This document shows positions 1 through 20,100 of a DNA stretch of 20,531 nucleotides, piece after piece. Where the stretch lies: positions 1 through 20,531 of the IMG/VR virus record IMGVR_UViG_3300048549_001018. One strand, written 5' to 3'. The stretch comes from a virus. Made by a program: the position numbers and the translations under genes. How positions within the stretch are numbered: position 1 is the stretch's first letter; the number at the start of each line of letters is the position of its first letter. The notes under the pieces were generated by a model, which was given only the letters and a program-made list of their open reading frames with translations, ran no database searches and had not been told where the DNA came from.

Positions 1-3000
1 CCGATAGATTCCCTATCAAGTCTCGCAACAACTTGTGTTCTAATACCAGTTCTGGTCTGATTTTGTGATGTTGTAATCGTTGTATTTTGGTCAATTGCAC
101 GACCCCATCCTCCAGGAAGTGAATTTCTTCTTCCAGAGCGGAATGCAGGACCGGTGGTGGTAGTTTGAACAGGTTGACCACTATTCGTCCATGAACCCCA
201 TACAGTAGGAGCAAATCCATTTTGATCTGCATTCATCTCGCTAAGGGTAGATTGGAAATCGCCCTCCATACTAATAACATTATCTGCTGCCTGCTCTGTT
301 TCTACCCAATCATCGGAAGATGGAGACAAATCAATACGACCAATATAAGCAAACACATTGAATGGGTTGACATTCTCTAATCTAGATGCATAAGTTTGCT
401 CAATAATCAACTCCTCAGTATAAGGAAGTGTGATGATATCACCTGTCTTTTGATATCCAGTAGAAAGAGTTTCGTTTAAAACAAGAGGAACGTTAGTTGT
501 ATAGTGAGATGGTCTACACTCACCAGTAACTAAATCAATCGATACTCTATAATCTTGACTGTTAACAGCACTCTTACTATGATCGGTAAAGTCATCAACC
601 ATAAATCCATTTTTGAATCTATTTTTACCACTAGAATCTGTGATTTGAGTATTGAATGTATCAGACTCAAGCATATTGAGTGAAGTGTAATACTCAACAT
701 TAGAAAGACGCTTTTCAATAGCACCAATATCGCGCATAGTATAACGCTTATTGGTTGATTTTCTAATTACGGTATCCGCATGAGGTTCAAATCCGTAGGG
801 TCTATGGGTCAATGTTGCAAGCAACATACCATCAACAATATCGTCAGGAATATCCGGTCTCTCTGCTGGTTTACCTGTAATTACTTGGAATTCTCCGGTG
901 GGAAGCATGAAAACTTTATCAATTCTGGAGAGATACCAGTTAAAGTCACATCTGAATACACTGTTTAGTTTAGGAATATCTAAGATAGTTGCTGGTGGTG
1001 TTCCTGCTGTTGGGAAACTTCTTGCCTTGAAATCAAAAGATCTTTGATTAACAAATGCTGGAGAAGAAACAGTACCAGAACCGCTATACAGTTTTTTCGA
1101 TCCTGGTCTAAAATCAAGATAATCACCTAAGAATTTCTCACCAAAGAAAGAAACATCAGCGTAGTCAGTTTCAAGATAAGACTGACCACTAAAATAATCA
1201 CCTGTGGCAGAATGATTATAGAAGTCAAGAACAACTTTTATTTTTCTGGTAGGTGTTGCAACACCATTCTTCCTCACGAGAGAGGAAGTTCCATACATGA
1301 AACCTGTTTGACCATTATCTAAATTATACCTATCGGTGATTACTTTAGATCCAAGAACAACTGAACCTTCAGCATCATTGATAATTGCACTAATATCAGA
1401 ACCATTACTATCTTTACCATCGAGAGTCTCACCAAGTTGCAATGTACCGGAGAGGTAAATCAATGTGAGTTTTAAGGTGCTTGAGTTAAAATCAACAACT
1501 CTTGCTCTAGCTTTAGATGTTCTTCCAACAACAATTTCTCCGGTCGCAAAGAAGACAGGTTCAACCAAAGTTACTGATGGAATTACAGGATCATCATCAT
1601 CCAAAGATTCATATACAGCATGAACACCATAGGCATCGATAGTTCCAAGAGAAAGTTTCTGGTCTTCGATTCTAGTTCCATATAAGTTGGAATATGTTAA
1701 ATTATAATTTTGTTTCGCTTTGTTTTCAACTGTCTTATTAACCTTCATGACAAACATTTTTGCAGGAGATTTAGTTTTTCTCTGCGTAGTGTCTTTAGAT
1801 AAGGTAGCAGTAACCTTTACTGAAGTAATCTGTGTCAGATTATCAATCTGAAGCGTTGTGCGATCTGCAGATGTGAATGAAGTATACCCAAATGCACCTG
1901 AGTTAATAGTATCAATAGGAATTTGATCTCCAACTGGGTAAGTGCTGTTGGTACTACCCATTACAGTAAACGTATAGTTGGCATCTGTAATTGAAGAGAA
2001 ACTCTCTCCTTCCGGAAGAGTAATTGAAATTGAGTTGGAAGCAACAGTCTGAGAATCAAACGTTCTTCTAACGACCATAGACTCGTCCGAAATACTCTTA
2101 ACGAAACTTCTTGGCATTTCGGTAAGAAGGTTAGCATCTTTAACATCAGTTAATTTACCTCTATATCTCAAGAGAGCAGTATAAGTTCCTGCAGCGGGTG
2201 ATTCAGCACCACCTGGCGGCGTAACATTTACACTCTGGTTTGCATAGTCAAACACAGTATTCATGTTTGATGTATTCAAACTAGCGGGATTGATAGAATC
2301 TACAGTAACATATTGAGTCTCATTAAAGAAGATTCTATCACCGGGTCTTAAATCTGTGGCAAAGTTTGATTGGAGACCAACAATAGTCTCGGAACCTCCA
2401 GTAGCATCGTAGGTAAAAGAAATACCTTTGACAATAGAAATATTATCTAAAACAATATCAGAAGTGAATTCGATATTAGTAGTTGCTTCATCTCTAGAAA
2501 TATAAGACCTAACATCAGAATACAAATACTGATGCATGAAATCAACGGTATTGATATTCAAACCATCTACGGTGAGCATCTCTCCTGCTTGGAATGCACC
2601 TTCAATTTGATAAACGGATACATTCTGACTAGCAATTACATTATCAATGATGTATGCTCTGGCACCAGAAGATTTACCAACGATCAAAGAACCTGCTGAA
2701 AGACTTGCCGCACCACCAAGTCTCATGACGGTGATCATCTGCACATCAAACAGATTCAGTTTATATCTATCATCGGTATTACCAAAAGTTGCATCGGGTG
2801 TAGCTACAAATTCGCAAGAAGCTACCCTAGCATAACCAATAATATTACCATTGGCATCACCAGGTGTAGCGGTAAAATCATCATAAAGTTCTACAACTTG
2901 ATAATTGTTAGTGATAGTAGAACCAGAAACATTTGGAAATCCGTAAATGTTACTAACATGAGAATAATTCCCCAATTCAAAACCAACAACAGCATTTTGC

Positions 3001-4151
3001 TGTGAATTTACATTTCTAGACTTCGGAATGTCAATATATGCTGGAGATAGATTTCTAACACGATACCCCTTGACATATGCAGTACCCGGACTTAACTCCA
3101 AAGCATACATATCAGAACTTGCAACATTACCTTGTGCTGTTGTCACTCCATCTTCATATACACCATTATTATATCCGTTATTCACAGAATCTCTCATCGT
3201 GAACTGGAATTCGTCTAAAACGTAGTTACCAGATTCTTCATATGTTCTGAGAGCAATAGATTTCTCAAGTTCATCATAAGCACTACGATCTACCAGTTTC
3301 TCAATTTTATTACCATTGATTCTCAGTAGTTCAATAAAATCTTTATCTGCATCATCCGTTAGCAGTTTTTTAATCAGTTTTGTTGTGATTCTAAATCTAT
3401 GAGAACCAGGAGCAGCATAGTTAGATGTTCCAGCAGCGTTATCGTTAAGACTAAGGTCGTCTTCTGGTGTAACAATAGACTCAAGAATTTCAAGTCCAAC
3501 TCTGTACTTCGGATTGGTTCCATACTGATCCAACAGGATATACTGATATGGTACGTCTACAAAGAATCCTCTAATGAAATATACACCATCTTGGACATAT
3601 GCAACAGATCCAGTTTGAAGTGCATCAGTAGGAAGCAACTGAGCAAAGGGAGAACCAACTTCAATTAGAGTAGTTCCAAAAGTGATTTCATTATCAGTGA
3701 TTAATTGTTCGTTATTTCTAAAGGTATCTTGATTATTATCATCACCACCAGATTCAATATACTTAACATATAATGTAATATAACCCTTATCAGACTCTGT
3801 GGCAGATACACTAAATAAAACTTTTGCTTTTACACCAGATGTCAATCCAGTGATAATTTTATCATTTAACTGCGATCTATATTCTTCTACGTTGGCACCA
3901 AGAAACGATTCTTGCAACATAATTGCCTGAACACTAATGTCATATCCGATTTGACCCGGAATGACCATAGAACCATCCTTAAACAGGTGAGAACCCATAT
4001 TTTCAATCTGATTCTGCAGAATACTCTGCATCGTCGTTAGTTCTCTAGCCTGAATAGGATAACCAGGACGATAAAGCACTCGATAAAAGTTTTTATCCTT
4101 ATCGAAATCGTCGTAATAGGGGGTTACATTGAGATTGGTGTTCTGTGCCAT
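1..4151 (-). CDS. DUF4815-type virion structural (baseplate/fibre) protein, 3' end beyond the window
   Basis: Read directly on the minus strand from ATG at 4151-4149, the frame stays open to base 1, giving 1,383 complete codons and no stop; the C-terminus lies outside. The N-terminus starts MAQNTNLNVTPYYDDFD and continues with a PGYPIQARELTTMQSILQNQ segment and LFKDGSMVIPG. From memory this is the signature of the DUF4815 family of large T4-like cyanophage virion proteins. Two G-x-F/L-x2-GE beta modules lie at about 2560-2700 and 1415-1570. Near the left edge (about 309-375) is an NPFNVFAYIGRIDLSPSSDDW-like stretch, followed by a Gln/Thr-rich segment. The start overlaps the gp8 stop codon (TAATG), so translation is probably coupled to gp8. 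Known: the family is virion-associated. Inferred: by position it fills the T4 gp9/gp10 slot, linking the baseplate wedge to fibres. No enzymatic motif is recognised. Confidence 0.86.
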   Translation of the reverse strand, partial: MAQNTNLNVTPYYDDFDKDKNFYRVLYRPGYPIQARELTTMQSILQNQIENMGSHLFKDGSMVIPGQIGYDISVQAIMLQESFLGANVEEYRSQLNDKIITGLTSGVKAKVLFSVSATESDKGYITLYVKYIESGGDDNNQDTFRNNEQLITDNEITFGTTLIEVGSPFAQLLPTDALQTGSVAYVQDGVYFIRGFFVDVPYQYILLDQYGTNPKYRVGLEILESIVTPEDDLSLNDNAAGTSNYAAPGSHRFRITTKLIKKLLTDDADKDFIELLRINGNKIEKLVDRSAYDELEKSIALRTYEESGNYVLDEFQFTMRDSVNNGYNNGVYEDGVTTAQGNVASSDMYALELSPGTAYVKGYRVRNLSPAYIDIPKSRNVNSQQNAVVGFELGNYSHVSNIYGFPNVSGSTITNNYQVVELYDDFTATPGDANGNIIGYARVASCEFVATPDATFGNTDDRYKLNLFDVQMITVMRLGGAASLSAGSLIVGKSSGARAYIIDNVIASQNVSVYQIEGAFQAGEMLTVDGLNINTVDFMHQYLYSDVRSYISRDEATTNIEFTSDIVLDNISIVKGISFTYDATGGSETIVGLQSNFATDLRPGDRIFFNETQYVTVDSINPASLNTSNMNTVFDYANQSVNVTPPGGAESPAAGTYTALLRYRGKLTDVKDANLLTEMPRSFVKSISDESMVVRRTFDSQTVASNSISITLPEGESFSSITDANYTFTVMGSTNSTYPVGDQIPIDTINSGAFGYTSFTSADRTTLQIDNLTQITSVKVTATLSKDTTQRKTKSPAKMFVMKVNKTVENKAKQNYNLTYSNLYGTRIEDQKLSLGTIDAYGVHAVYESLDDDDPVIPSVTLVEPVFFATGEIVVGRTSKARARVVDFNSSTLKLTLIYLSGTLQLGETLDGKDSNGSDISAIINDAEGSVVLGSKVITDRYNLDNGQTGFMYGTSSLVRKNGVATPTRKIKVVLDFYNHSATGDYFSGQSYLETDYADVSFFGEKFLGDYLDFRPGSKKLYSGSGTVSSPAFVNQRSFDFKARSFPTAGTPPATILDIPKLNSVFRCDFNWYLSRIDKVFMLPTGEFQVITGKPAERPDIPDDIVDGMLLATLTHRPYGFEPHADTVIRKSTNKRYTMRDIGAIEKRLSNVEYYTSLNMLESDTFNTQITDSSGKNRFKNGFMVDDFTDHSKSAVNSQDYRVSIDLVTGECRPSHYTTNVPLVLNETLSTGYQKTGDIITLPYTEELIIEQTYASRLENVNPFNVFAYIGRIDLSPSSDDWVETEQAADNVISMEGDFQSTLSEMNADQNGFAPTVWGSWTNSGQPVQTTTTGPAFRSGRRNSLPGGWGRAIDQNTTITTSQNQTRTGIRTQVVARLDRESI

Positions 4152-5683
4152 TAGAATTCGATTACGATTTTAATATCTTCGATTTGGTCATTTGCACGAC
4201 CGATTGCTCTTCTATTATCTATGTAAATAATCTGACCATCATTTGACTTAATCTCAGGTTTTGCATAACCATTATTAAACTTCATACCCAAGTCATATTC
4301 AGTATTATTAATAGTTCTAGAAGAAGAGTTTGGTACAGCGGGAAAATTAACATCTGGTTGACCAGCGGCACCAGAAGTTGCGCCATTAATTACATTAGAA
4401 CCATCAAACTCATTAAGAGTACCAGTAACTTCTGGAAAAATACCATCAATAGCATTCTGATAATATTTCAGAACTTTAGTTGTGGCATTCCAAGAAACTA
4501 CGCGGGCACGAGCAGTAACGTTTACACCACCAACAACTCTACTTTGAGTGATAATTTCATCGGGAGTATAGTTACCTTGAAAAGAAGGTGGGAAAATAAC
4601 TGCCTTTGCAGCAGAAACAGTAAGGTCGGAAATCAATTCTTCAGTACCAAACTTTTTAGGATTGGTAATTAAACCAATACGACGGTAGTCATTATCAACG
4701 GGGAAGTCACCAGCACCTTCAGCATAAGACAACTTAGCATTGATCATGACACGGAAAGCACCCAATTCCATGATAGGATCATAACCATGACCACTTGGGG
4801 GTGGGATAATAACATCAACCTGACCACTAGTACCAGTACCAATACCAGTAATATTATCAACACTGATTTTACCGAAGGTATAACCAGTACCACCAGAAGT
4901 CACAGTAGCGGAAATAATTTTACCACCATCAACTACGATGGAAACACGACCACCAGTACCATCACCGTTAATTGCGACATTATCATATGTGCCATTATTG
5001 TAACCAGATCCAGCGGCAGTAATTACAACAGTGTCTACTTCGCCAGCAACAGCATTTGTTCTAACAGCGTCGTTCTCAAGAACGGGCATGTAATCATTAG
5101 AAAAGAATTTCAGAACAGAAGCAACAGGGATGGTGTAAAGATATTTCCAGCGATAACCATCAGAAGTAGTGATAATAGAAGTAGAAGTACCAGTCGGTTC
5201 AACTGTTGACGGTTTACCGTTCGGATCAGACGGAGAAGTGCCATTAAAAATACACTTATAAACTTGATACTGTGAGTTTACAACATAAAAGTCAGAATCA
5301 TATAACTTAGTAGCACCTGAAGAAGCAGTTTTACTAGGAGAATAGTCATGCCTATACATGTCATAGGTAAAACCTAGACCGCCCGTAGTTTGTTCGGGTG
5401 AAACCCAGTCAATCCTACGACAAACCTGAACTGTATCTGAAGCGAGAACTCGCTTCAAAGAGATCATGTCGTCGTAAGAACCGGAAAATTCTGAGAAGGA
5501 ATCTACCGCTTGTGGTGGAGCGTTTTCATTATCCCATGATTGGGGACGGCCGATGAAGATGTACAGACGATCTCTCGTTGTACCCGCTGCCGTATCGCTT
5601 TGTGTCGCGATAGGACCTTCAAGAGCTTTAATAAATTTCCTCGCAGAAAAAATTCTAAATTGATCAGTTAATAGAGCTGCCAT
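4151..5683 (-). CDS. 8: Baseplate wedge subunit gp8, enlarged by inserted beta modules
   Basis: 510 aa. Several blocks match T4 gp8 (334 aa) as recalled: RLYIFIGRPQSW near residue 39 (T4 TIFITFGRSEPW), VCRRIDW at 87-93 (T4 VIPRRDW), DGYRWKYLYTIP at 175-186 (T4 DGYVWEYLFEIP), NDYMPV near 197, RRIGLITNP at 334-342 (T4 RQISIITNP), and the C-terminus GQIIYIDNRRAIG...DQIEDIKIVIEF (T4 GEMIYMENRPPII...DQTEEINILFTF). In T4, gp8 is a wedge protein of the hexagonal baseplate that joins gp10 and gp7 to gp6. The extra length is concentrated at about residues 205-300, where Gly-rich G-x-GY repeats occur, and 355-445, where an RARVVSWNATT module occurs. The start at 5683 gives the conserved N-terminus and is preceded by AAGG. 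The stop overlaps the start of the DUF4815 gene by one base. Family call is very secure; the function of the insertions is unknown. Confidence 0.94.
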   Translation of the reverse strand: MAALLTDQFRIFSARKFIKALEGPIATQSDTAAGTTRDRLYIFIGRPQSWDNENAPPQAVDSFSEFSGSYDDMISLKRVLASDTVQVCRRIDWVSPEQTTGGLGFTYDMYRHDYSPSKTASSGATKLYDSDFYVVNSQYQVYKCIFNGTSPSDPNGKPSTVEPTGTSTSIITTSDGYRWKYLYTIPVASVLKFFSNDYMPVLENDAVRTNAVAGEVDTVVITAAGSGYNNGTYDNVAINGDGTGGRVSIVVDGGKIISATVTSGGTGYTFGKISVDNITGIGTGTSGQVDVIIPPPSGHGYDPIMELGAFRVMINAKLSYAEGAGDFPVDNDYRRIGLITNPKKFGTEELISDLTVSAAKAVIFPPSFQGNYTPDEIITQSRVVGGVNVTARARVVSWNATTKVLKYYQNAIDGIFPEVTGTLNEFDGSNVINGATSGAAGQPDVNFPAVPNSSSRTINNTEYDLGMKFNNGYAKPEIKSNDGQIIYIDNRRAIGRANDQIEDIKIVIEF

Positions 5684-5723: not shown

Positions 5724-8700
5724 TTACTCGGATCTAATTTCAGTATTGAATTCAAGACGCTTGATTCTGTAACTTGCGCCATTAGATCCGTTGAGCAATT
5801 CTCCCCCAAGAATTGCTTGAATCACTGCACCATTACCAGTAGAATCCCCAGAATCATTAGTAACCGTAATGGTTGGGCGCGAATTATATGTACCATCAGT
5901 ATACTGCTGATAACCATATCCGCCATTATTTACGGTGACCGATGCAATCTGATCACCTGCAGTTGTCATTACAGCAGTTGCTGTTGCTTGGATATCTCCT
6001 GCATTCTCAACAGAAATTGATGGGGTTGCAGAATAATCATTGCCGGGATTTTGAACAATAAAATCAATGATAGTTCCACCATCGGAGAATTTATATAAGA
6101 CGCCATTAACACCAACATTGAGATTGGTAGTGTCAAACGGAATAATTCCTCTAACAAGAAGAACTCCACTAGAAGGATTCCAACTAGTTACGGTTCCCCT
6201 TACACCAGAAACATCTCCAGTAACAACTTCTTCTGGGAAATAGTTTGATCCATTTCCACTAGCCAAATCCAGAACTACAGAAATAGTTACTTCATGAGGA
6301 ATACCTTCATTTAATCCGCCAGCCGCAGTAATGGTGGCATATCTAAACGGAATTGATGCATCTTTTACCTGATCACCAACTTGGAATAAGGTTGTGTTTT
6401 GTCCGCCAATGGTTTCTTCAATACCATATAATGAATTATAAAGACCACCATCAAGTCTAATCTGATTTTCATAATCAGTTCCAGTATTTACCAAATCAGC
6501 AATACCATCACCTACACCATCAAGTTCATCATCGTCTTCAAATTTACGATCCTCAAGAAATCCAATGGGTTCTGACAAGGTAATAATATTATCACCTACA
6601 GATTCCAATATAACATGGGGATCAAATCCTCCAGTAGCAGAAGTAGATACTCCAGCGTCAAACTGAACAATAGCATCTTCTGTAGTTGGAATACCAGCAT
6701 CAATGAATGCTAATTCATCAACCTCAAAAGTAACCAGAAGTTCTCTAGTAGTGGCATTCCAATCATATACTTTGGCAATTTTATTATTTTCATTTTCAAT
6801 TCTTCTAATTACCCTATCATTTACATTGAACTGATAAGTAGAATCTCCATCATTATTATTTTGATTAGCATCTAAGATAACCCTTTGATCATACTTAAAG
6901 TTTTTACCTCTAGTAACATTAAAGAATCTTTCTCTAGATTTGGACGTATATGAGACAGTTTCTCTACCAATAATCAAATTACCAGATCCAGGATATGCAT
7001 CTGTACTATCAACATATAATGTCGTATCACTACTACTTGCATCTCTCAGCAGTCCAGTCAAATAATTTGGCGTAGAATTATAAGATTGTCTATTACTGAT
7101 AGTTCTCTTTAAGTTAACAAGTTTAGTGAAGATGATATTAGGAGGATTGACATACCCTTCACCTGGATCTGTAACATCAATTCCAACAATCACACCCTGA
7201 TCAATTCTAGCGACTGCTTTAGCACCAATGCCCCCACCACCAGTGATTAAGATGTAAGGTGCTTGCTGATAAAATTCACCTTCATCAACTATATTAATAC
7301 TAGTAACCTTTCCGTTTGAATTAACTTGTGCCCTACCTCTAGCACCTTGTCCACCACCACCACCTTCAAAAATAAGAGTTGGGGGGGTTGCAAACTCCCG
7401 ACCCTCCTGTAAAAGAGTTAGACCGGTAATTGTTTGTACTGTCGGAACTGCTGTTGCACCAGATCCCTCACCACCAATAATTTTTGCTTTTGCTGGACCA
7501 AAATACCCATCTCCACTTCTAACCATTTTGACATATCCAACAGATCCATCTGGATTTAAGACAACTTCACCCTTTGCACCGTCAGGAAACACATTTGTAA
7601 TTGCGGGTAATTCTCCATCGGAATGATACGGTTCTCCATAAAATTCAGGACCAATTACATACGGATAAACCGGATTATCGCTAGAATCAGTAGACATAAA
7701 ATATGCATAAGTTCCGTTTGGATAATCTGGAGTGACTGCAAATCTACCGTTATGTCTATCTAAAGTACCTAATCCATCCTCAAAAATATAATCTTGAACA
7801 AAAGATCCCAAAGGATATCCATCCTGAACACATCTAAATCCATATTCAGGATTAGTATAGGATATGACATATAAAAGTCTGGGAGAATTTATCTTTGGAG
7901 TAAATTCAAGTCTTTTATTAGTCGCTCCAGCAAATCCTTGAACATATGCAAGATAGGTAGTCTCAACATTATCGATAAAATATCTAATTCCATCTTGGAA
8001 TAAGTATTGGGTATTTCCGATATCGGGAGGATTGCCAATATGCCATCCATCTTCCTGTAAAGCAAACAAGACGGGACTTGCAAGAGCATCTTGATTAAAA
8101 ATGTAAGTCTTTCCCCTGTCCAGTTGCAAGAATGGAGGAACGGATCCATCTATTGCAAACTTACCATTTGATACTGTAACAGTGTAGTTTACTGTCCCTG
8201 TTGTAGTTATAGAAGCTCTTTGACCATCAACTTCATTCGTATTTTTTAATCTATATGAGGATGTTTCTCTGCGAACTTGACCGGTAGAATCATATCCCCA
8301 TTGACCATAAATCGGATATCCATCATAAGATACACCAAGAATTCTAGAGTGTCCGGTTACATGCCTAGAGTAATCAAAACTAGATCCATCGAGATAATAA
8401 TCCGTAATGTAATAATTATTCGGTAAAGGTTCGTCATCAATCTCAGGACTGAGGATCATATATCCCTCATCCCCATCATATCCAGACATGTGTCTGTGAT
8501 ATCCGCAATAATAATAAATTATATTAGTCTCATCAGCGTTCATAATAAACACCGGCCGGAACTCATTCTCATAGTCCGCTGCTGGTGCTCCAGACGCTCC
8601 TGTCGAATCGTAGTATAAAGTACCAGGAGTTGGGTTTAAAGCACCGTCAGGGGTCGTACTGAAGCGCATAGGATGCCCTTGAGTATGATGTGCTGATGGT

Positions 8701-9884
8701 TGATTAGATGAGTCTGACTGATCCCAAATAATTTGATAATTTCTCTGAACTCTGATGTCTGTTGGTGCCAGATAATAAGTATTTGGGATGAAATTTCCAA
8801 ACTCATGAGAATCTGGTCCAAATTCAATATAAAACAATCCGTTAGGGAAAGTAATCGGATCTTGTCTGACCGTAGCACTGAAACCTGTAGATCCCAATAA
8901 TTGATCTCCGTCAGCAAATTCTCCAACTACAGATCTTAAATATAACCTATCAATAACACCATTAACACGAATAATTTTAGCGATTTGTCCCCTAACAACT
9001 CCTTCGCCAACTCTCTCTACTAATCTACCTTCTTCTATTGGATTTAAAGTTTCATCAATATTATTGATATGAACAAGAATATTATCATGCTCAGTTTTTA
9101 CTGTCCATGTGAATTGCTGTTTAAATCCGTTTTCAAAAACACCTCCAGCATCATCAAATTGATTAATTAATTTGTTAGTATGATAATAGTATTGATTATT
9201 TCTAACTACAGCATCATAAGTGTCAGTATTCAGAAGAAAATCGTGAGGGATGATATCAAAATTAAATGCAGCAGGTGGTCCTCCAACAGAACCCCAATCG
9301 GGTGTATGTAAAAGAACACCATTGGACATAACACCAATAGGTTTATTTAATTCAATAGGTCTATCTCCACTGTAAGGAACATCCTTACCTCCTCTATAAA
9401 CAAATTGTCTACTAAAGGTCTGATCTACTAATGGTCCTCCACCCGGTTCTCTTTCCGTTCCGTAATTTACCGGTTTAGGATGATTGTCGGAAGTAATTGT
9501 TAATCTATCAGTAACATCACCATTATTGATTAAAAATACACCGGAAGTTGCAGAGTTTGGATTTGACTGCCAAATTCTATTAATATTGAAAGTAGATACT
9601 ACGTTTGGTGTATCCTGTTCTGGAATAATTGAAAGTCTTAATGGGTCATACCCTTTACCAGATTCTAATACCCTAACATGAGTGATTCTTCCAGAAACAT
9701 CGTCAATGATGGGATATAAAAGTGACTCTGCAACGGGTGTACCACAACCAGTCACCGTAAGTCTGGGAGGATCAGAACTATCGTATTCTGAACCCCCATT
9801 GATTACTTTTACTGCTCTAACGCCGAACTCATCATTGAAAATCGGTTCAATGACTGCACCAGATCCAGGAACTGTTCTTGCCAT
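5724..9884 (-). CDS. 1,386-aa modular virion protein with cupredoxin/YHYH region and Gly-rich beta repeats
   Basis: Not recognised as a T4 protein. Order of parts: residues 1-100, G-x-GY-type beta repeats (INGGSEY, LESGKGY); 285-340, a G-x-F-x2-GD module (VVGEFADGDQLLG); 352-480, cupredoxin-like with GHPMRF (His404) and YYYCGYHRHMSG (Cys460, His463, Met466); 511-527, GHSRILGVSYDGYPIYG, which matches the second half of YHYH-domain proteins; 565-685, a second cupredoxin-like copy without ligands; 780-920, four Gly-rich repeats (e.g. DPGEGYVNPPNIIF); 950-1000, a fibre-like SSSDTTLYVDSTDAY / LIIGRETVSY segment; two WN-type beta modules near 1037 and 1228; and G-x-GY repeats again at 1270-1365. 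No signal peptide or membrane segment. The ATG at 9884 follows the previous gene after tandem in-frame TAA TAA and AAA, with no clear Shine-Dalgarno, so coupled translation is likely. Its place directly before gp8 suggests a baseplate or fibre component. Confidence 0.88.
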   Translation of the reverse strand: MARTVPGSGAVIEPIFNDEFGVRAVKVINGGSEYDSSDPPRLTVTGCGTPVAESLLYPIIDDVSGRITHVRVLESGKGYDPLRLSIIPEQDTPNVVSTFNINRIWQSNPNSATSGVFLINNGDVTDRLTITSDNHPKPVNYGTEREPGGGPLVDQTFSRQFVYRGGKDVPYSGDRPIELNKPIGVMSNGVLLHTPDWGSVGGPPAAFNFDIIPHDFLLNTDTYDAVVRNNQYYYHTNKLINQFDDAGGVFENGFKQQFTWTVKTEHDNILVHINNIDETLNPIEEGRLVERVGEGVVRGQIAKIIRVNGVIDRLYLRSVVGEFADGDQLLGSTGFSATVRQDPITFPNGLFYIEFGPDSHEFGNFIPNTYYLAPTDIRVQRNYQIIWDQSDSSNQPSAHHTQGHPMRFSTTPDGALNPTPGTLYYDSTGASGAPAADYENEFRPVFIMNADETNIIYYYCGYHRHMSGYDGDEGYMILSPEIDDEPLPNNYYITDYYLDGSSFDYSRHVTGHSRILGVSYDGYPIYGQWGYDSTGQVRRETSSYRLKNTNEVDGQRASITTTGTVNYTVTVSNGKFAIDGSVPPFLQLDRGKTYIFNQDALASPVLFALQEDGWHIGNPPDIGNTQYLFQDGIRYFIDNVETTYLAYVQGFAGATNKRLEFTPKINSPRLLYVISYTNPEYGFRCVQDGYPLGSFVQDYIFEDGLGTLDRHNGRFAVTPDYPNGTYAYFMSTDSSDNPVYPYVIGPEFYGEPYHSDGELPAITNVFPDGAKGEVVLNPDGSVGYVKMVRSGDGYFGPAKAKIIGGEGSGATAVPTVQTITGLTLLQEGREFATPPTLIFEGGGGGQGARGRAQVNSNGKVTSINIVDEGEFYQQAPYILITGGGGIGAKAVARIDQGVIVGIDVTDPGEGYVNPPNIIFTKLVNLKRTISNRQSYNSTPNYLTGLLRDASSSDTTLYVDSTDAYPGSGNLIIGRETVSYTSKSRERFFNVTRGKNFKYDQRVILDANQNNNDGDSTYQFNVNDRVIRRIENENNKIAKVYDWNATTRELLVTFEVDELAFIDAGIPTTEDAIVQFDAGVSTSATGGFDPHVILESVGDNIITLSEPIGFLEDRKFEDDDELDGVGDGIADLVNTGTDYENQIRLDGGLYNSLYGIEETIGGQNTTLFQVGDQVKDASIPFRYATITAAGGLNEGIPHEVTISVVLDLASGNGSNYFPEEVVTGDVSGVRGTVTSWNPSSGVLLVRGIIPFDTTNLNVGVNGVLYKFSDGGTIIDFIVQNPGNDYSATPSISVENAGDIQATATAVMTTAGDQIASVTVNNGGYGYQQYTDGTYNSRPTITVTNDSGDSTGNGAVIQAILGGELLNGSNGASYRIKRLEFNTEIRSE
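7124..7545 (-). repeat. Gly-rich beta repeats (residues ~780-920 of the 1,386-aa protein)
   Basis: Four degenerate units of about 35 aa follow the plan hydrophobic strand, x-G-x-G-Y/F, x2-P-x-I/V-x-I/F, Gly run, G-A-x-A-x-A/V. Examples are RSGDGYFGPAKAKIIGG, EGREFATPPTLIF, DEGEFYQQAPYILITGG and DPGEGYVNPPNIIF. The same unit recurs at the C-terminus of this protein, in gp8 (residues ~213-300) and near the C-terminus of the giant protein (TAGGSGYTSRPNVRI at ~11340). It is probably a stacked beta structure. Confidence 0.7.
7830..8192 (-). other. Second cupredoxin-like copy that has lost all four ligand positions (residues ~565-685)
   Basis: Aligned by eye with the copy at residues 352-479 and with the C-terminus of the 406-aa protein. 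LDRGKTYIFNQD corresponds to the strand before the first ligand. ASPVLFALQEDG matches GHPMRFSTTPDG with Ser603 at the His position and the next Pro kept. RLLYVISYTNPEYG matches IIYYYCGYHRHMSG with Ile674, Thr677 and Glu680 at the Cys, His and Met positions. The fold is probably kept while metal binding is lost. Confidence 0.45.
8304..8354 (-). other. YHYH-family signature (residues 511-527)
   Basis: GHSRILGVSYDGYPIYG, followed by QWGY, fits the conserved His-Ser-x3-G-x3-DG-x-P-x-YG core that I associate with the YHYH domain. Proteins of that family are found in bacteria and as parts of cyanophage virion proteins. The upstream YHRH at 462-465 would be the variant of the name-giving tetrad. Confidence 0.65.
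8448..8831 (-). other. Cupredoxin-like domain with candidate type-1 copper ligands (residues ~352-479)
   Basis: The region has a conserved His followed by Pro (GHPMRF, His404), then after about 55 residues a Tyr-rich strand ending in Cys460-x2-His463-x2-Met466-x-Gly. This order (His, then Cys-His-Met in one C-terminal loop) is that of type-1 blue-copper proteins, and the C-x2-H-x2-M spacing is that of amicyanin. The same stretch can also be read as YHRH, a variant of the YHYH motif, because a YHYH-family GVSYDGYPIYG segment follows about 50 residues later. Metal binding is inferred, not shown. Confidence 0.55.
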
Positions 9885-9890
9885 TTTTTA

Positions 9891-11111
9891 TTAACTTACA
9901 ACGGTGATTGTGCCATTCATTAAAGTGTGAAGCGTACACTGATAATATAAGGTAGTAGGAGCATCCATTGGAACAGTCCAATATAAAACATTAGAACCTG
10001 TTCCAGTTTGACCATCCGTATATGGGGTTCCAGTCAGACCGCTAGTCGATTGAATTCTAAATGGATGAGCACCACCATTAACGGAATTATCAAATGCATA
10101 TGTCATTCCACGCATAACATAAAGTGTGGGGTCGGAAGCTGTACCTGTAAATCCAGGTCCACTAAAAGTATAAGATGAAATACCATCAGCATTCAGTTCC
10201 CACCATGTCATTGGACTGCGAGTAACTACCCAATTAGCGCCACTCCAATACAAAGAGTCGCCCTGAGTAATACCAGAAACATCAGTATCTGTAAGTGCCG
10301 CTAAAGTAGTAGTTAATGTTCCTGTAAATGCAACAGTTACTGTGTCACCAGCAATTGTAGTTGAGATATTCGTACCACCTGCAATAGTAAGGGCATCCGT
10401 TTCGCTAGATGCTGTTGTAGTGCCCGTATCAGCATTTATAGTAGCAAAACTAGTGATACTAGATACACCAGCATTATCATCGCCAGGAACCCAATTGGTG
10501 CCATCCCATTTTAATACTTGGTTATTTGTGGGAGGAGTTGTTGCAATATCAATGTCGGTAAGATCACCAACACTAGTATATTGAGTTAACAAACCAACCC
10601 TAGTATCACCAACACCACCTGCTGTGATGTTCATATTTACATAAGGTGTGTCGTCTCCGTCAACAGTAAAGAAATAACCAGGATAGGCTGCTGCAGATGG
10701 AGCAACACCTAATGTCGTATATTCATTTTTATATTTTACTTTAGTTGGTAAATCAATATCACCAGTTGCGCCATCAAAAGTATTCGTAATACTACCATTA
10801 CTAATTGTTACGTCACCAGTGCCATTTGGGGCAATTGTTATATTTCCATCACTAGAAGAAATAATGGAGTTTCCATTAACATCCAATGCTGCGGTAAGTG
10901 CAGTATAGTCAGATGCAATAAAAGAAGTACCAGTATACTTCAATACCTGACCAACACCAGCGTTAGTTACATCAATTTGAATGTCTGCTCCATTACCTAA
11001 AGCAGCATAGATTTCAGTAAAGTTGTCATTGATTTTATCGCCACCAGCACGGAGGGTATCCCCCGTGTTGTCGTTTGGCGCAGAACCAATATTAAGTGCT
11101 TGCTTGGACAT
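9891..11111 (-). CDS. 406-aa fibre-like virion protein with C-terminal cupredoxin-like domain
   Basis: The N-terminus (LNIGSAPNDNTGDTLRAGG followed by KINDNFTEIYAAL) is a motif seen at the start of many phage tail-fibre and virion-decoration proteins, probably a mounting domain. Three fibre-type repeats follow: NAGVGQVLKYTGTSF (about 50-64), a DLTDID...NQVLKWDGTNWVPG stretch (183-210) and TDTDVSG...GDSLYWSGANWV (274-297), with Ser/Thr/Gly-rich beta sequence between them. Residues 300-406 form a cupredoxin-like domain with GGAHPFRIQSTSG (His349) and LYYQCTLHTLMNG (Cys392, His395, Met398), ending three beta residues later. The start is preceded by an exact late-promoter core but no obvious Shine-Dalgarno; the next gene begins 6 nt after the stop. 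Role inferred: a small fibre, whisker or decoration protein. No T4 counterpart is recognised. Confidence 0.87.
   Translation of the reverse strand: MSKQALNIGSAPNDNTGDTLRAGGDKINDNFTEIYAALGNGADIQIDVTNAGVGQVLKYTGTSFIASDYTALTAALDVNGNSIISSSDGNITIAPNGTGDVTISNGSITNTFDGATGDIDLPTKVKYKNEYTTLGVAPSAAAYPGYFFTVDGDDTPYVNMNITAGGVGDTRVGLLTQYTSVGDLTDIDIATTPPTNNQVLKWDGTNWVPGDDNAGVSSITSFATINADTGTTTASSETDALTIAGGTNISTTIAGDTVTVAFTGTLTTTLAALTDTDVSGITQGDSLYWSGANWVVTRSPMTWWELNADGISSYTFSGPGFTGTASDPTLYVMRGMTYAFDNSVNGGAHPFRIQSTSGLTGTPYTDGQTGTGSNVLYWTVPMDAPTTLYYQCTLHTLMNGTITVVS
9894..10214 (-). other. C-terminal cupredoxin-like domain with complete amicyanin-type ligand set (residues ~300-406)
   Basis: His349 (AHPFR) is followed 43 residues later by Cys392-T-L-His395-T-L-Met398-N-G-T-I-T-V-V. 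As recalled, amicyanin ends with Tyr-x-x-Cys-x2-His-x2-Met-x-Gly and a final beta strand, with the other His about 40 residues upstream, so order, spacing and distance to the C-terminus all agree. The strand GMTYAFDNS before His349 matches the equivalent strand in the two copies of the neighbouring protein. Copper binding is inferred. Confidence 0.6.
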
Positions 11112-14100: not shown

Positions 14101-17100
14101 CTTGTAGTAGTTGAATGCAGTAGAAATAGCACCAGAAGTAGATTTGATTGTTCCGTAATTAGAACCCTGCTGAATTCTATATCCAGCGGTTAAACTGGAA
14201 CCCCTGATTATCTGAACAACTAATTTGCTGGTTTTGGGATACCATTCAAGAACTTCAACCTCAAGGGTGCTAGTGCGACCAGTATCAAGTCCAAGATTAT
14301 TAGATCCGCTATATGCGGGTTGGCCAACAGTAAAGGTTCCAGTAATATTTTCAAGTTCTACAGTTCTAGCAGTAACATAACTGCTGCTATCTGTAGTTAC
14401 CATATCATGAATGGTGTTGTTAAGCATCTCCGTAAGGAAATCATTGTAAGTCCAATAAGAAGAACCCCACTGAGCATTAACTTCATTCGTAATCTCTTCT
14501 CTATAATAGTTCGCATTGAAGAGAAGCATTCTTCCCGCTGCGCGAGAAGCAGTATCACCTGGTGTAAGAGTGTCGATAATAAGATCTATAAGATTATCGA
14601 ACGCATTGATAACATCCGCACAATCATCATCACTGTAAGTTGAGTTACCGGACTCATCAGTAATTGTTAGATCAGTATATGGAGTTACTGGTGTGTATTG
14701 TGCTCTATATTGATCTCCCGAAGCACCATCTCCAATTCCAACAAGTAAGTTGCGAATCGCTTTCTTACCAAGGAATCTAACCTGTTGATAGGCATACATG
14801 GCAGGAAGAATTTGATCTTCAAACTGTTTTAAACCATTAGAAGAGGTGATGTAGTATTCAATCGCTTTAACTGTATTGGAGTTACCTCCAGTAAGTAAGT
14901 CAGCAATTACACTATCAATAATATCTTTAATATCATCCTTACAATTTTCTCTACCTACAGAAATACCGCCCGGATAAGAGAATGCATTGTAAGATGCCAC
15001 ACCCAACTGATAAGCAAACGCTGCATCCAAAAGAAGTGTTGCTTCATCCGCAATAAATTCCTTATTGAAGAGAAGCAAATCACCAGCATCTCGGTAACGA
15101 TCCCCAGTGGGAGCGAGAGAGATATTTGCAAGATCGATCAGAGCATCAATTGCACTCGTTACATTTGCACAATTTCCAGGATCATTTGTGATTCCCCAAT
15201 CACCAACAATAACAGCATCAGTGTTAGTGGAATCGATATCACCTGTTACTGCTTGTTTAGCGTAGAATGCGAGTCTTTCGTGTGCGTAGCAACCCTCTAC
15301 CAACTGAAGTCTTACATGTAAGATTTCATCATTAGCACCAAAATAAAGACCTAAACCAGTAAGAAGATTAAGATTTCCACCTTCTTCAATGTCATTAGCG
15401 ACAGCATCCAAGATAAGACCTAAGTCGGTCTTACAACGTAAAGTACCAGCTCCACTACCATCTTGGTTTCTAGGCATACTCAAACCAAGATGAGGATACC
15501 TGCTGATCATATCAACAGCTGCCTTGTCTACAATTGCCTTTCTATTGAGACGAATTAGATTTGCAGCATCTCTAAATCGATATTGAGCATTTACATTAAA
15601 CTTATTGGCATATACAATGTCATCATTATTAAAGACATCAGTCAATTCAATAGGAACTTCACTAAACGAATCTACATAAGATCCTAAGAATTCGTAGACT
15701 GGGAACAGTTTAGTTACGGTGCCAAGATAATCTACCGGAGATGGAAGATTAGCATTAGTTAAGGTATCAACAACAATATCCATGAGATTTTGGATTGTCT
15801 GCTTAACATCAGCGCAATCTGCTGATGTGTAATCCAATACAGTGACTGCATTTGTTGCTGCACTGACAAACACATGAGTATATTGACGATCAGCAGGAGA
15901 TACGCCCACATTTACTGTGAAGGTATTTGTAGAAACTGCCGTTACAGAAAGAACTCTTCTATATGCAGGGTCAGTTGAACGAGGATAAGTGTGCTGTGAC
16001 GCATTATCATCTTGACTGCAAGTAAATGTAAAGGAGTCATCAGCAAAACTTACCTTACTAGAAGTGCTTAAGTTATGACCAGCAGAGGTGATTACCATTT
16101 CTCCAGTAACAGGATCATATGTTGCTCCACTAGGAGTTAACTGCGTCAGACTTCCATAGTTATTGGAATCATAGATTGTAGTATCCGTATACTGAGTTAA
16201 ACTATGATCACCTTGAATTGTAATTAATTCGTTATTAATAATCTTATTGACAAGTTCAACGTGTTTATTGAGAACCCAAAGTGTTTGTGGAATCTCAGTT
16301 TCAACATGATTTAATTGTACAGGATTTGCTTCCCTGTTTACATATAGAGCAGATGCATCCCAAAGATGAGTATTAGAACCATTTCTAAGATCATCGACCA
16401 GTGCATCTGTAAGATCAAGAACATCATCTTCACAGTTCACCTTCTGATCAGCGACTACACCGCCAGCAATAGCAGACTTGAATGTGTGTACATATGCACC
16501 ACCAGTAATAACAGCATTTGCAACATTACTTACCCATGCATAGGTATATTGCTGACCTGAAGGAGAAGCACCGACATTGATCGTAACCGCACCGGTTTGC
16601 TTGATTAAAGCACCAGTTGTAGCAGACACGAAATTGTGAGTTGTTGTGTCAGTAGATGTACCAATATCTAAAGTAAATGTGTTGCCATCAACAACCGTAA
16701 CTGGTTGCCATAATCCCCAAATGGGATCAGATTGTCTGGGATATGTGTGATTTGTAGCATTAGAATCATAGGCACATGTGAATGTTAAGGATTCACTTGC
16801 GATTTGAATGTGATCTCCTGTGCTGAGATTATGTCCATTAGAAGTAATGGTCAGGATTCCGGTGGTGGGAACATAAGTCGCACCAGTAATATCCGCAGTA
16901 GTAGTTCCTACCGAAGTAACATTCAATGTTGTATTGTATGCAGGATCAGTGGAACGAGGATACTGATGCTGAGAACCATTAGCGTCTTGACTGCAAGTGA
17001 ATGTAAATCCAAGATTAGCAAGTCTTAATTTAGTTCCAGCATTAATTGTATGATTTGGAATGGTCATTACAAAATCACCAGTTGCAGAATCATACGTTGC

Positions 17101-20100
17101 ACCAGTAGGTGTCCAGTAAACAAACGGAGATGTACCTACATTAACTGTAATTGACGTAGAAGATGCATCAACAACAGGCAGTGCATTAAACTTAGTAGCA
17201 GGATCTCTTGGACGGGGATATGTTACCTCAGTCTGATTATTATCACTAGAACATGTAAATGTCAATGCATTAGGATTGATCTTAATGCGATCTCTTTCTA
17301 CTGTAATAGCACCAGTTTCAGCGGAAACAAAATTGTGAGTGTATTGCTGACCTGAAGGAGATGCACTAACATTAATTACAAATTCATGGTCATTTGGCAC
17401 ACTAGTAATAGTAATCCAATCTCCAGCAGCAGGATCTGTAGGACGAGGATATTCATGTTCTGATCCATTGCTATCTTGATCACAAGTAAATGTTATAGAG
17501 TTGACTTTAATATTAACTCTTTGACCAACACTCAATCCATGATTAGTTACTGCAATAGTCATATCACCAGTTGCAGCATCATATGTTGCATTTCTAGGTG
17601 TAATCTTACCACCGTTAGTCAGTGTATTTGCACTAACTGCCATTGTTAACAATCCAGTAGTTGCATCATACGTTGCATCTGTTGGTGTGAATCTATCGCC
17701 AGGAATGACAAGATTTGGATATCTCTGTCTCATCAGATAAACGGATTCTTTAGCAATAAGCGATCTGTTTTCGGAGATTAATCTGGAAGCATCAATATAT
17801 CTGTGTGTCTTTCCAACAAATCCGGATGTAGGAACACCAACATTAACTGTAAGTGTAGTGCCTGTAACCGCAGAAATAGTAAGAGTAGAACCATATGCAG
17901 GATCGGTTAATCTAGGATATGTGTGATTGGTTGCATGATTATCTTTAGAGCAAGTAAATGTAAGAGCATTTGCTGCAATGACAACTGTATTTGAAGTTGT
18001 ATAACTATGAGAACCAATAGTCAGAACAAGATCACCCGTCACTTGGTTATAAGTTGCTGCGGTAACTTGTTCGTTAGTACCATTTACAGCAATAGCATCC
18101 GCAGAAGATTCAACAAAGATGTGCTTACCACCTGTGTTTCTTTGAGTTTCTCTCAGAGCATCATTACAGAAATCATCACCTTCAGTCCAAGATGCTGTAC
18201 CAGACCAATCATCAGTGTGAACCTGTCCATCAACACCATCAAAGTGTAAAAGAAGTTTAGTATCAGCATCGCCTTGGAATAATCCAGTAGGAGCAGTGAA
18301 ATCGGCAGTATAACGAGCAACCGAAGATACTCTCAATTCATCCAAATGACCAGAGAACGTGTTAGCACCTGCATAATCACCAGCAAATTTAATTGGTTTG
18401 GTAGTTCCAAAATCACTACCATCAGAATATGTGCTACCCTCTTGAACACCGTTTAAGAATAACTTAGTGCTGTTCCCACTTCTAGAAAGAGCAACATGAT
18501 ACCAAGTGGAGTGTCCAAGATTTGTAGCGCCAGTGATAACAACACTACCATTATTGTAATACTTCAAATTCATACCATCAAGATACAAATAAGGAGCAAG
18601 TTCTGTAGCAGTAGATCTAAAATCAACCAATGCTTTAGTACCAGAGATATTACCAGCACGCATCCAGAATTCAATAGTGAAGTTTCCAGTGCCGAATCCA
18701 AACTCAGTAGAGGTTGGAATACTTAAGAAGTCGGAAGTGCCATTAGCGGCACCTACATTGACTGTAATAGTAGTAGCACTAGTAGCAGAAATTGCAATAG
18801 TTGAACCAGAAGCAGGATCTGTGGAACGGGGATATGGGTGATTTGATCCGTGAGCATCAGCGCCACATGTAAATACTAATCCATTATCAGCAATTGTAAT
18901 TGTTTCTGAGGTCGAAAGACCATGAGCACCAATCTCAAGAACCAATACACCAGTTACTGGATCATATGTTGTTCCAGTTGCTGCAGTATATGTGACATTA
19001 GTATTAGAGGTAATAGCATCTGCAACACCACTAACGAAAGTATGTTGATGATATGCACGCGCTAAGAGTAGTGAAGATAGACCATATCTCTTTGTGGACG
19101 TATCAAGTTGTGCTTCTTCATTAAAAGTAGAAACATGATAATCCTCTCCAGTATATTGAGATCTTGCTACTTTACCCAAGTAAACAGTTTTTCTTGCTTG
19201 ATTATAACCAATAACTTCTGCCTTAGATGTAGTATTTCTAATAACCTGACCGGCAGTGAAGAATCCAGATCCAAGAGTATTTTTCTCGTGAGTAAGTTTT
19301 CTAACGGAAGTATTTTCATCGGTAATAAAATCACCAACAGTATTTGAAAGTTCGACTCTCTTATTTCTAATTTTTTCACCTTCTTGGAAAGTTCCATTAA
19401 CATTAACAACATCAATTACAATATTGTTGATAATTTCATTTGCTGGGAAGTTGGAATCAAACGGAGTCGTATTATCATCAAAATCAACAATACTAATTTG
19501 AGATGCAGAAATATCATCAAGAACAACGTTTTGATAGTTAATACTAGTAATTCTGTTGAACAGAAGACCGGAGAAACTTGCTCCAGGTGAAATATTAACC
19601 TGACTAATAAACTGTTGAGTTGCTGGATCTTGATAAGGACTTGTAGCAGTAACCGTAGCAACAACTCCAGATTTAGCACCAATAATAATGTCATTTAATG
19701 CAATATCAAACAATCCTGGTGTAGATTGATATGTTCCAGCGGTTTTACTAAGAATCAGATTATTACCAATCTCAATATCAGTACCATATAAAGGAGCAGC
19801 CTGTAAGTGGGAAACAGCGGCAGTTCCAAGTTGTGCTCTACTTACCTGAAGATTAATAATTCCAGATTCACTGCCAGCAGTAACTGCACTAATGGTCATA
19901 ATTTCAGACGCAATCTGAATGTTATCACTAACAGCAAACTGAGAAGCATCAGAAGTCAGAACTTCAAATGATGTTGTGGAAGTACCGATGCCATATCTTA
20001 AAGTACCCAAAGGTTCTTGCTGACCACCTTCAAGATTAATTTCCTCAACCTTTGCAGTATCACCATCCAAATTGGAAATGGTTTCATTGAAAGCAAATAA

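Follow-up and report, generated by a model that had tools for sequence, protein, structure and literature searches.

A predicted copper-binding cupredoxin domain at the C-terminus of a gp9-like baseplate protein in marine cyanophages

The 20,531-base virus record analysed here, called the window below, contains part of a T4-like cyanophage baseplate cluster; the cluster lies on the - strand and is syntenic with Syn10, P-SSM4 and S-SM1 (Table 1). A sequence-only reading had proposed that a fibre-like protein of this record ends in a cupredoxin-like domain with an amicyanin-type set of copper ligands. Does a protein of the phage baseplate carry a mononuclear copper site, and what could such a site do in the virion?

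The protein that was described as fibre-like is, more exactly, a baseplate wedge or tail-fibre connector of the T4 gp9/gp10 type. It matches phrog_677 over its full length (E = 1.8e-188), and residues 3-108 pass Pfam PF07880 (T4_gp9_10_N) with 36.8 bits for a cut-off of 25. This N-terminal region was aligned with T4 gp9 by BLASTP (2e-7) and with T4 gp10 (2.2e-6) and T4 gp9 (0.006) by phmmer; both programs aligned the N-terminal region only, and no homology to T4 gp9 was found in the C-terminal half. Its gene has gp8 and other baseplate genes as neighbours, an arrangement shared with annotated relatives. The window gp9 thus shares its N-terminal region with T4 gp9 and gp10, whereas its chain ends in a cupredoxin and nothing in the T4 record matches the cupredoxin profile. 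The 3108-residue structural protein contains a motif like FTCSQDANGSQHQYPRSTDP six times within 15967-18867 (-), with a seventh variant lacking the His; this Cys/His-bearing repeat could bind metal too.

Table 1. Features of the window and of the cupredoxin-like domains that it encodes
Feature	Position	Strand	Basis
Structural protein, 3108 aa	11134-20460	-	
gp9-like gene, 406 aa: baseplate wedge / tail-fibre connector	9891..11111	-	phrog_677, Pfam T4_gp9_10_N, BLASTP
gp9 N-terminal T4 gp9/gp10-type baseplate-attachment region, residues 3-108	10788..11105	-	Pfam PF07880, phmmer
gp9 C-terminal cupredoxin domain (predicted), residues about 306-406	9894..10196	-	AlphaFold2, Foldseek, profile matches
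His349 codon, first putative ligand, HPF motif	10065..10067	-	invariant in 29 diverse relatives
Cys392 codon, putative ligand	9936..9938	-	invariant in 29 diverse relatives
His395 codon, putative ligand	9927..9929	-	invariant in 29 diverse relatives
Met398 codon, putative axial ligand	9918..9920	-	invariant in 29 diverse relatives
gp9 stop codon	9891-9893	-	
Baseplate wedge subunit with YHYH domain and two more cupredoxin-like domains, 1386 aa	5724..9884	-	YHYH 1.5e-21, phrog_708
Second cupredoxin domain, ligands intact: His404, Cys460, His463, Met466 (GHPM ... YYYCGYHRHMSG)	8481..8780	-	profile, alignment A4
Third cupredoxin-like domain inside YHYH domain, ligands lost (SPVLF ... LLYVISYTNPEYG)	7830..8210	-	profile, model, A4
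YHYH domain (interrupted), DYSRHVTGHS to PVYPYVIGPEF	7641..8375	-	Pfam PF14240 in three stretches, motif positions
gp8	4151-5683	-	
Large partial ORF	3-4151	-	Syn10, P-SSM4 and S-SM1 have VrlC or an unnamed structural protein at the equivalent place

The positions of the proposed ligands were checked by direct indexing. His349, Cys392, His395, Met398 and Gly400 are indeed found where the sequence-only reading had placed them (AHPFRIQ ... LYYQCTLHTLMNGTITVVS), with the C-x2-H-x2-M spacing typical of amicyanin, and the interval 9894-10214 that it had assigned to the ligand-bearing C-terminus corresponds to residues 300-406 of gp9. Of the five large proteins of the window, two contain the pattern H-x(30-60)-C-x2-H-x2-M-x-G, namely gp9 and the adjacent 1386-residue protein, with one occurrence each; it was not observed in any of 2000 residue shuffles of these five proteins. 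A chance motif in gp9 is ruled out by the shuffles (0/2000) together with the conservation described below.

We then modelled the gp9 domain with AlphaFold2, using a 17-sequence alignment (A1) as input. The model contains eight strands and has a mean pLDDT of 91.8 and a pTM of 0.85; His349 immediately precedes a strand, Cys392 closes another one, and His395 and Met398 are in the loop preceding the last strand, so that the order of strands and ligands in the model is consistent with a type-1 site. In a Foldseek search of the PDB, rusticyanin, copper nitrite reductase, pseudoazurin, amicyanin and plastocyanin were retrieved with probabilities of 0.9-1.0 and a best E-value of 2.9e-4, the superpositions being loose (TM up to 0.59, rmsd 4-5 Å for the best). 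The single domain sequence gave no significant match to PDB sequences; the relation appears with a profile of 29 relatives, which matched copper nitrite reductase 6hbe (2.5e-7), amicyanin (9e-5) and plastocyanin (0.004). The predicted model and the PDB fold matches agree on the Greek-key beta-sandwich of the cupredoxins, as had been proposed, and the ligands follow in the order His, Cys, His, Met, with the Cys-His-Met loop preceding the last strand.

The domain reaches no Pfam or NCBIfam cut-off. It is not listed by PF00127 (Copper-bind), for which the related domain of the proximal tail fibre of P-SSM2 scores 23.3 bits against a cut-off of 21.2, and it scores 14.6 bits with the amicyanin family TIGR02657 of NCBIfam, below the equivalog cut-off of 110.2. 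Weak matches to the At5g54830-like domain PF25489, which we take to be a plant membrane-protein domain, came from 18 of the 29 members (best 0.0041), the window copy scoring 15.8 bits, below the curated cut-off of 27.

Amicyanin is a type-1 copper cupredoxin and a partner of methylamine dehydrogenase. The gp9 domain resembles it by its Greek-key beta-sandwich and by a His ... Cys-x2-His-x2-Met loop of equal length; its His-to-Cys spacing is 43 residues, against 39 in amicyanin, and its first-ligand motif is HPF, as in multicopper oxidases, instead of the PHN of amicyanin. Moreover, amicyanin is a free periplasmic carrier while the gp9 domain closes the chain of a structural protein of the virion. 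Copper nitrite reductases and rusticyanin, which gave the best profile match (6hbe) and the best fold matches, have the same ligand order as the gp9 domain; they are enzymes or electron carriers, whereas neither a type-2 copper site nor a partner is seen for the gp9 domain.

Most of the domain varies among the 29 relatives, which extend to about 32% identity. Only seven columns are invariant (G36, F41, H50, Y91, C93, H96 and M99 in domain numbering), and four of them are the His, Cys, His and Met ligands. Every one of the 81 unique gp9-type copies that extend over the site also has all four ligands, two further copies being cut short, in samples partly gathered with peptide patterns that span the Cys/His stretch and can favour intact copies. 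A tblastn search of named phages does not involve such patterns, and the distant matches fetched in this way were likewise intact. The ligands are thus conserved in close and in distant homologues.

The adjacent 1386-residue protein carries two further copies of the domain, which brings the total in the window to three: the gp9 copy and the one preceding the YHYH domain are intact, and the one inside the YHYH domain is ligandless. Neither of these neighbouring copies, nor the wide spread of the domain, figured in the sequence-only reading. The second copy matched the domain profile with E-values of 2.7e-24 and 1e-24, from a profile that had already taken in such copies, and the third with 2.8e-20 and 3e-20. 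The third copy is modelled with pLDDT values mostly of 81-95. Taken as a whole, the model computed for 406 residues of the neighbouring protein is of poor quality (pLDDT 62, and below 50 in the YHYH part), and its laccase-like fold matches (TM 0.17) are too weak to be given weight beyond their agreement.

In alignment A4, the ligands of the second copy are conserved and the third copy is ligandless throughout. Among 65 distinct YHYH proteins, the second copy is intact in 60, and 59 show the pattern of an intact copy before the YHYH domain and a ligandless copy inside it. Three proteins (S-SSM4, ACG-2014d and S-RIM14) are devoid of the first copy, and their inner copy keeps the four ligands. 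One has three cupredoxin copies, the extra intact one lying elsewhere in the YHYH domain (L033, ORF at 3330, 996 aa, incomplete). Two lack a complete set, of which one (L019) keeps the His, Cys and His and has lost the Met. In all, 63 of the 65 proteins have one or more intact sites, either ahead of the YHYH domain or within it. In ligandless copies, the His, Cys and Met mostly vanish together. That every cupredoxin copy binds metal is ruled out, as most phages lack the ligands in the copy that interrupts the YHYH domain. Since ligandless and intact copies occur in one protein family, the fold can persist without the ligands, and the retention of all four ligands elsewhere is thus a sign that a metal site has been selected for.

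With tblastn, as many as 347 phage records match the domain at E <= 1, the weakest of these matches being marginal; in 336 of them the match spans 80% or more of the query, and nearly all the records are from Synechococcus or Prochlorococcus phages. It is carried by gp9, by the proximal tail fibre of P-SSM2, by an unannotated protein of the podovirus P-SCSP2, by other structural proteins and by phage S8 proteases. Nothing in T4 or P-SSP7 matched the domain profile. The domain is a widespread mobile virion module common to marine cyanophages, without a name so far. A library of predicted viral structures adds uncultured phages and giant-virus "beta-sandwich" proteins; the latter, small proteins of Pithovirus LCPAC302, Marseillevirus LCMAC201 and LCMAC202 (BFVD A0A481Z6J5, A0A481YWX9 and A0A481YY19), match the model with E-values of 3e-6 to 2e-5. 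A scan of 84,980 genomes, carried out with a narrower sequence set than the diverse profile A2, returned eight loci only. One of them, an S8 subtilase enclosing a cupredoxin domain with intact ligands, lies on a contig from a gammaproteobacterial bin (L151:3569-5977), called phage-like from an upstream gene whose product resembles a major capsid protein. Three others are very large secreted-type proteins of marine alphaproteobacteria with the cupredoxin domain (L154, L155 and L156, with two copies in L155); Pfam identifies an M64 peptidase and RTX repeats in L154, and M64 and/or RTX-type regions were read by eye in L155 and L156.

The fold, the ligand set, the conservation of the four ligands amid a variable domain and the recurrence of the domain are established by computation. 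From sequence and model, we consider it likely that the last ~100 residues of gp9 form a cupredoxin domain with a type-1-like mononuclear copper site of the amicyanin-loop kind, used as a mobile virion module. We are quite confident that the C-terminal domain carries the predicted copper site, and its copper binding appears very likely because of the fold, the ligand conservation and the pattern of ligand loss and retention across copies. Occupancy by Zn, Ag or no metal is possible. The virion would pick up copper outside the host cytosol, probably after lysis, since the cyanobacterial cytosol keeps copper scarce. By analogy with T4, the gp9 cupredoxin would sit at the junction between gp9 and the long tail fibre, on the outer side of the baseplate. 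Any specific role is much less certain than the copper site itself; our best guess is a module for host contact or for the fibre joint, in which copper would keep the site rigid. Such a site could also be sensitive to redox conditions on the surface of the cell, and we find it doubtful that the gp9 site is so.

The same fold could serve in the virion without copper, as a beta-sandwich for adhesion or packing whose Cys, His and Met contribute to folding or hold another metal, e.g. zinc. Phage fibre domains are often metal-free beta-sandwiches, copper is scarce and complexed in seawater, and the copy inside the YHYH domain retains the fold without ligands, which indicates that the fold needs no metal. 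We nevertheless judge this explanation rather unlikely, since only seven columns are invariant and these include the four ligands, since the axial Met, for which zinc would have no use, is kept as well, and since the His, Cys and Met are mostly lost together in ligandless copies. If copper is bound, it might also be a trigger: an illuminated host surface would reduce or oxidise the copper, shift the joint between gp9 and the tail fibre and license firm attachment or sheath contraction, which would explain the light-dependent adsorption of some cyanophages. T4 gp9 is annotated in its record as tail fibre connector and trigger of sheath contraction, and phage Milano offers a precedent of a contractile tail that is redox-gated, through disulfides (PMC10811340). 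P-HM2, whose adsorption is light-dependent (PMC7112961), has five profile matches, at least three of them intact, and P-SSP7, which is not light-dependent, has none; with S-PM2 this is a comparison of three phages, confounded with myovirus versus podovirus, that cannot decide. For S-PM2 we found a partial profile match without C-x2-H-x2-M and no intact copy. Light-dependent adsorption was reportedly described for this phage too, by Jia et al. in 2010, and its lack of the motif argues against a general light or redox trigger, which we hold to be clearly unlikely.

A metal Trojan horse of the kind suggested for iron in the fibres of T4-like and Alteromonas phages, in which the tail copper would be a bait or ligand for a receptor that serves metal uptake by the host, seems to us very unlikely. 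The presence of the domain in a proximal tail fibre speaks for it, but a type-1 site is buried, and its very strong grip on copper makes it poorly suited to delivery; we know of no cyanobacterial copper receptor for such phages. The precedent on its side is published: HxH-bound iron in phage tail fibres, with the Trojan Horse hypothesis (PMC11705849). T4 gp37 and other phage fibres share with the window gp9 the idea of metal on a virion tail protein (PMC11705849), although their HxH motifs form octahedral iron sites along the fibre and the gp9 site would belong to a cupredoxin fold with a Cys. The intact sites close to the YHYH domain (63 of 65 proteins) could also suggest an electron relay, feeding an oxidative or metal-dependent reaction of that domain on the cell envelope, and YHYH has been predicted to be a metal-dependent hydrolase (PMC7824862). 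This relay is the least probable of these explanations and highly improbable, as the gp9 copy has no YHYH domain in the same chain and the YHYH model is poor here. We know of no proven activity for YHYH.

Cupredoxins and type-1 copper sites are classical knowledge. In the open-licence literature on cupredoxins or copper with phage tails or virions, on YHYH, and on cyanophage baseplates, proteomes and light-dependent adsorption, we did not find a prior account of a cupredoxin or of a copper site in any phage virion. Since the P-SSM2 tail-fibre copy passes the Copper-bind cut-off, a database user could already have come across the module. Virion mass spectrometry of S-SM1 has been published (PMC3037559), and the nearest published idea is iron at the HxH motifs of phage fibres (PMC11705849).

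The predicted copper site gives a functional handle on a module labelled merely "structural" or "hypothetical" in many of the records examined. T4-like cyanophages are among the most abundant viruses of the ocean, and if their baseplates hold conserved type-1 copper sites, the phage particles would be copper proteins. On a bolder reading of the sequences and models, to which we give a small chance, marine cyanophage baseplates would be redox-active copper assemblies in which the sites of gp9 and of the YHYH protein gate attachment or contraction by means of electrons from the host surface; if true, this would provide a molecular basis for the light-dependent adsorption of some cyanophages. A copper-bearing baseplate, if confirmed, would thus bear on marine copper chemistry, on the triggering of attachment and on why some cyanophages adsorb only in the light.
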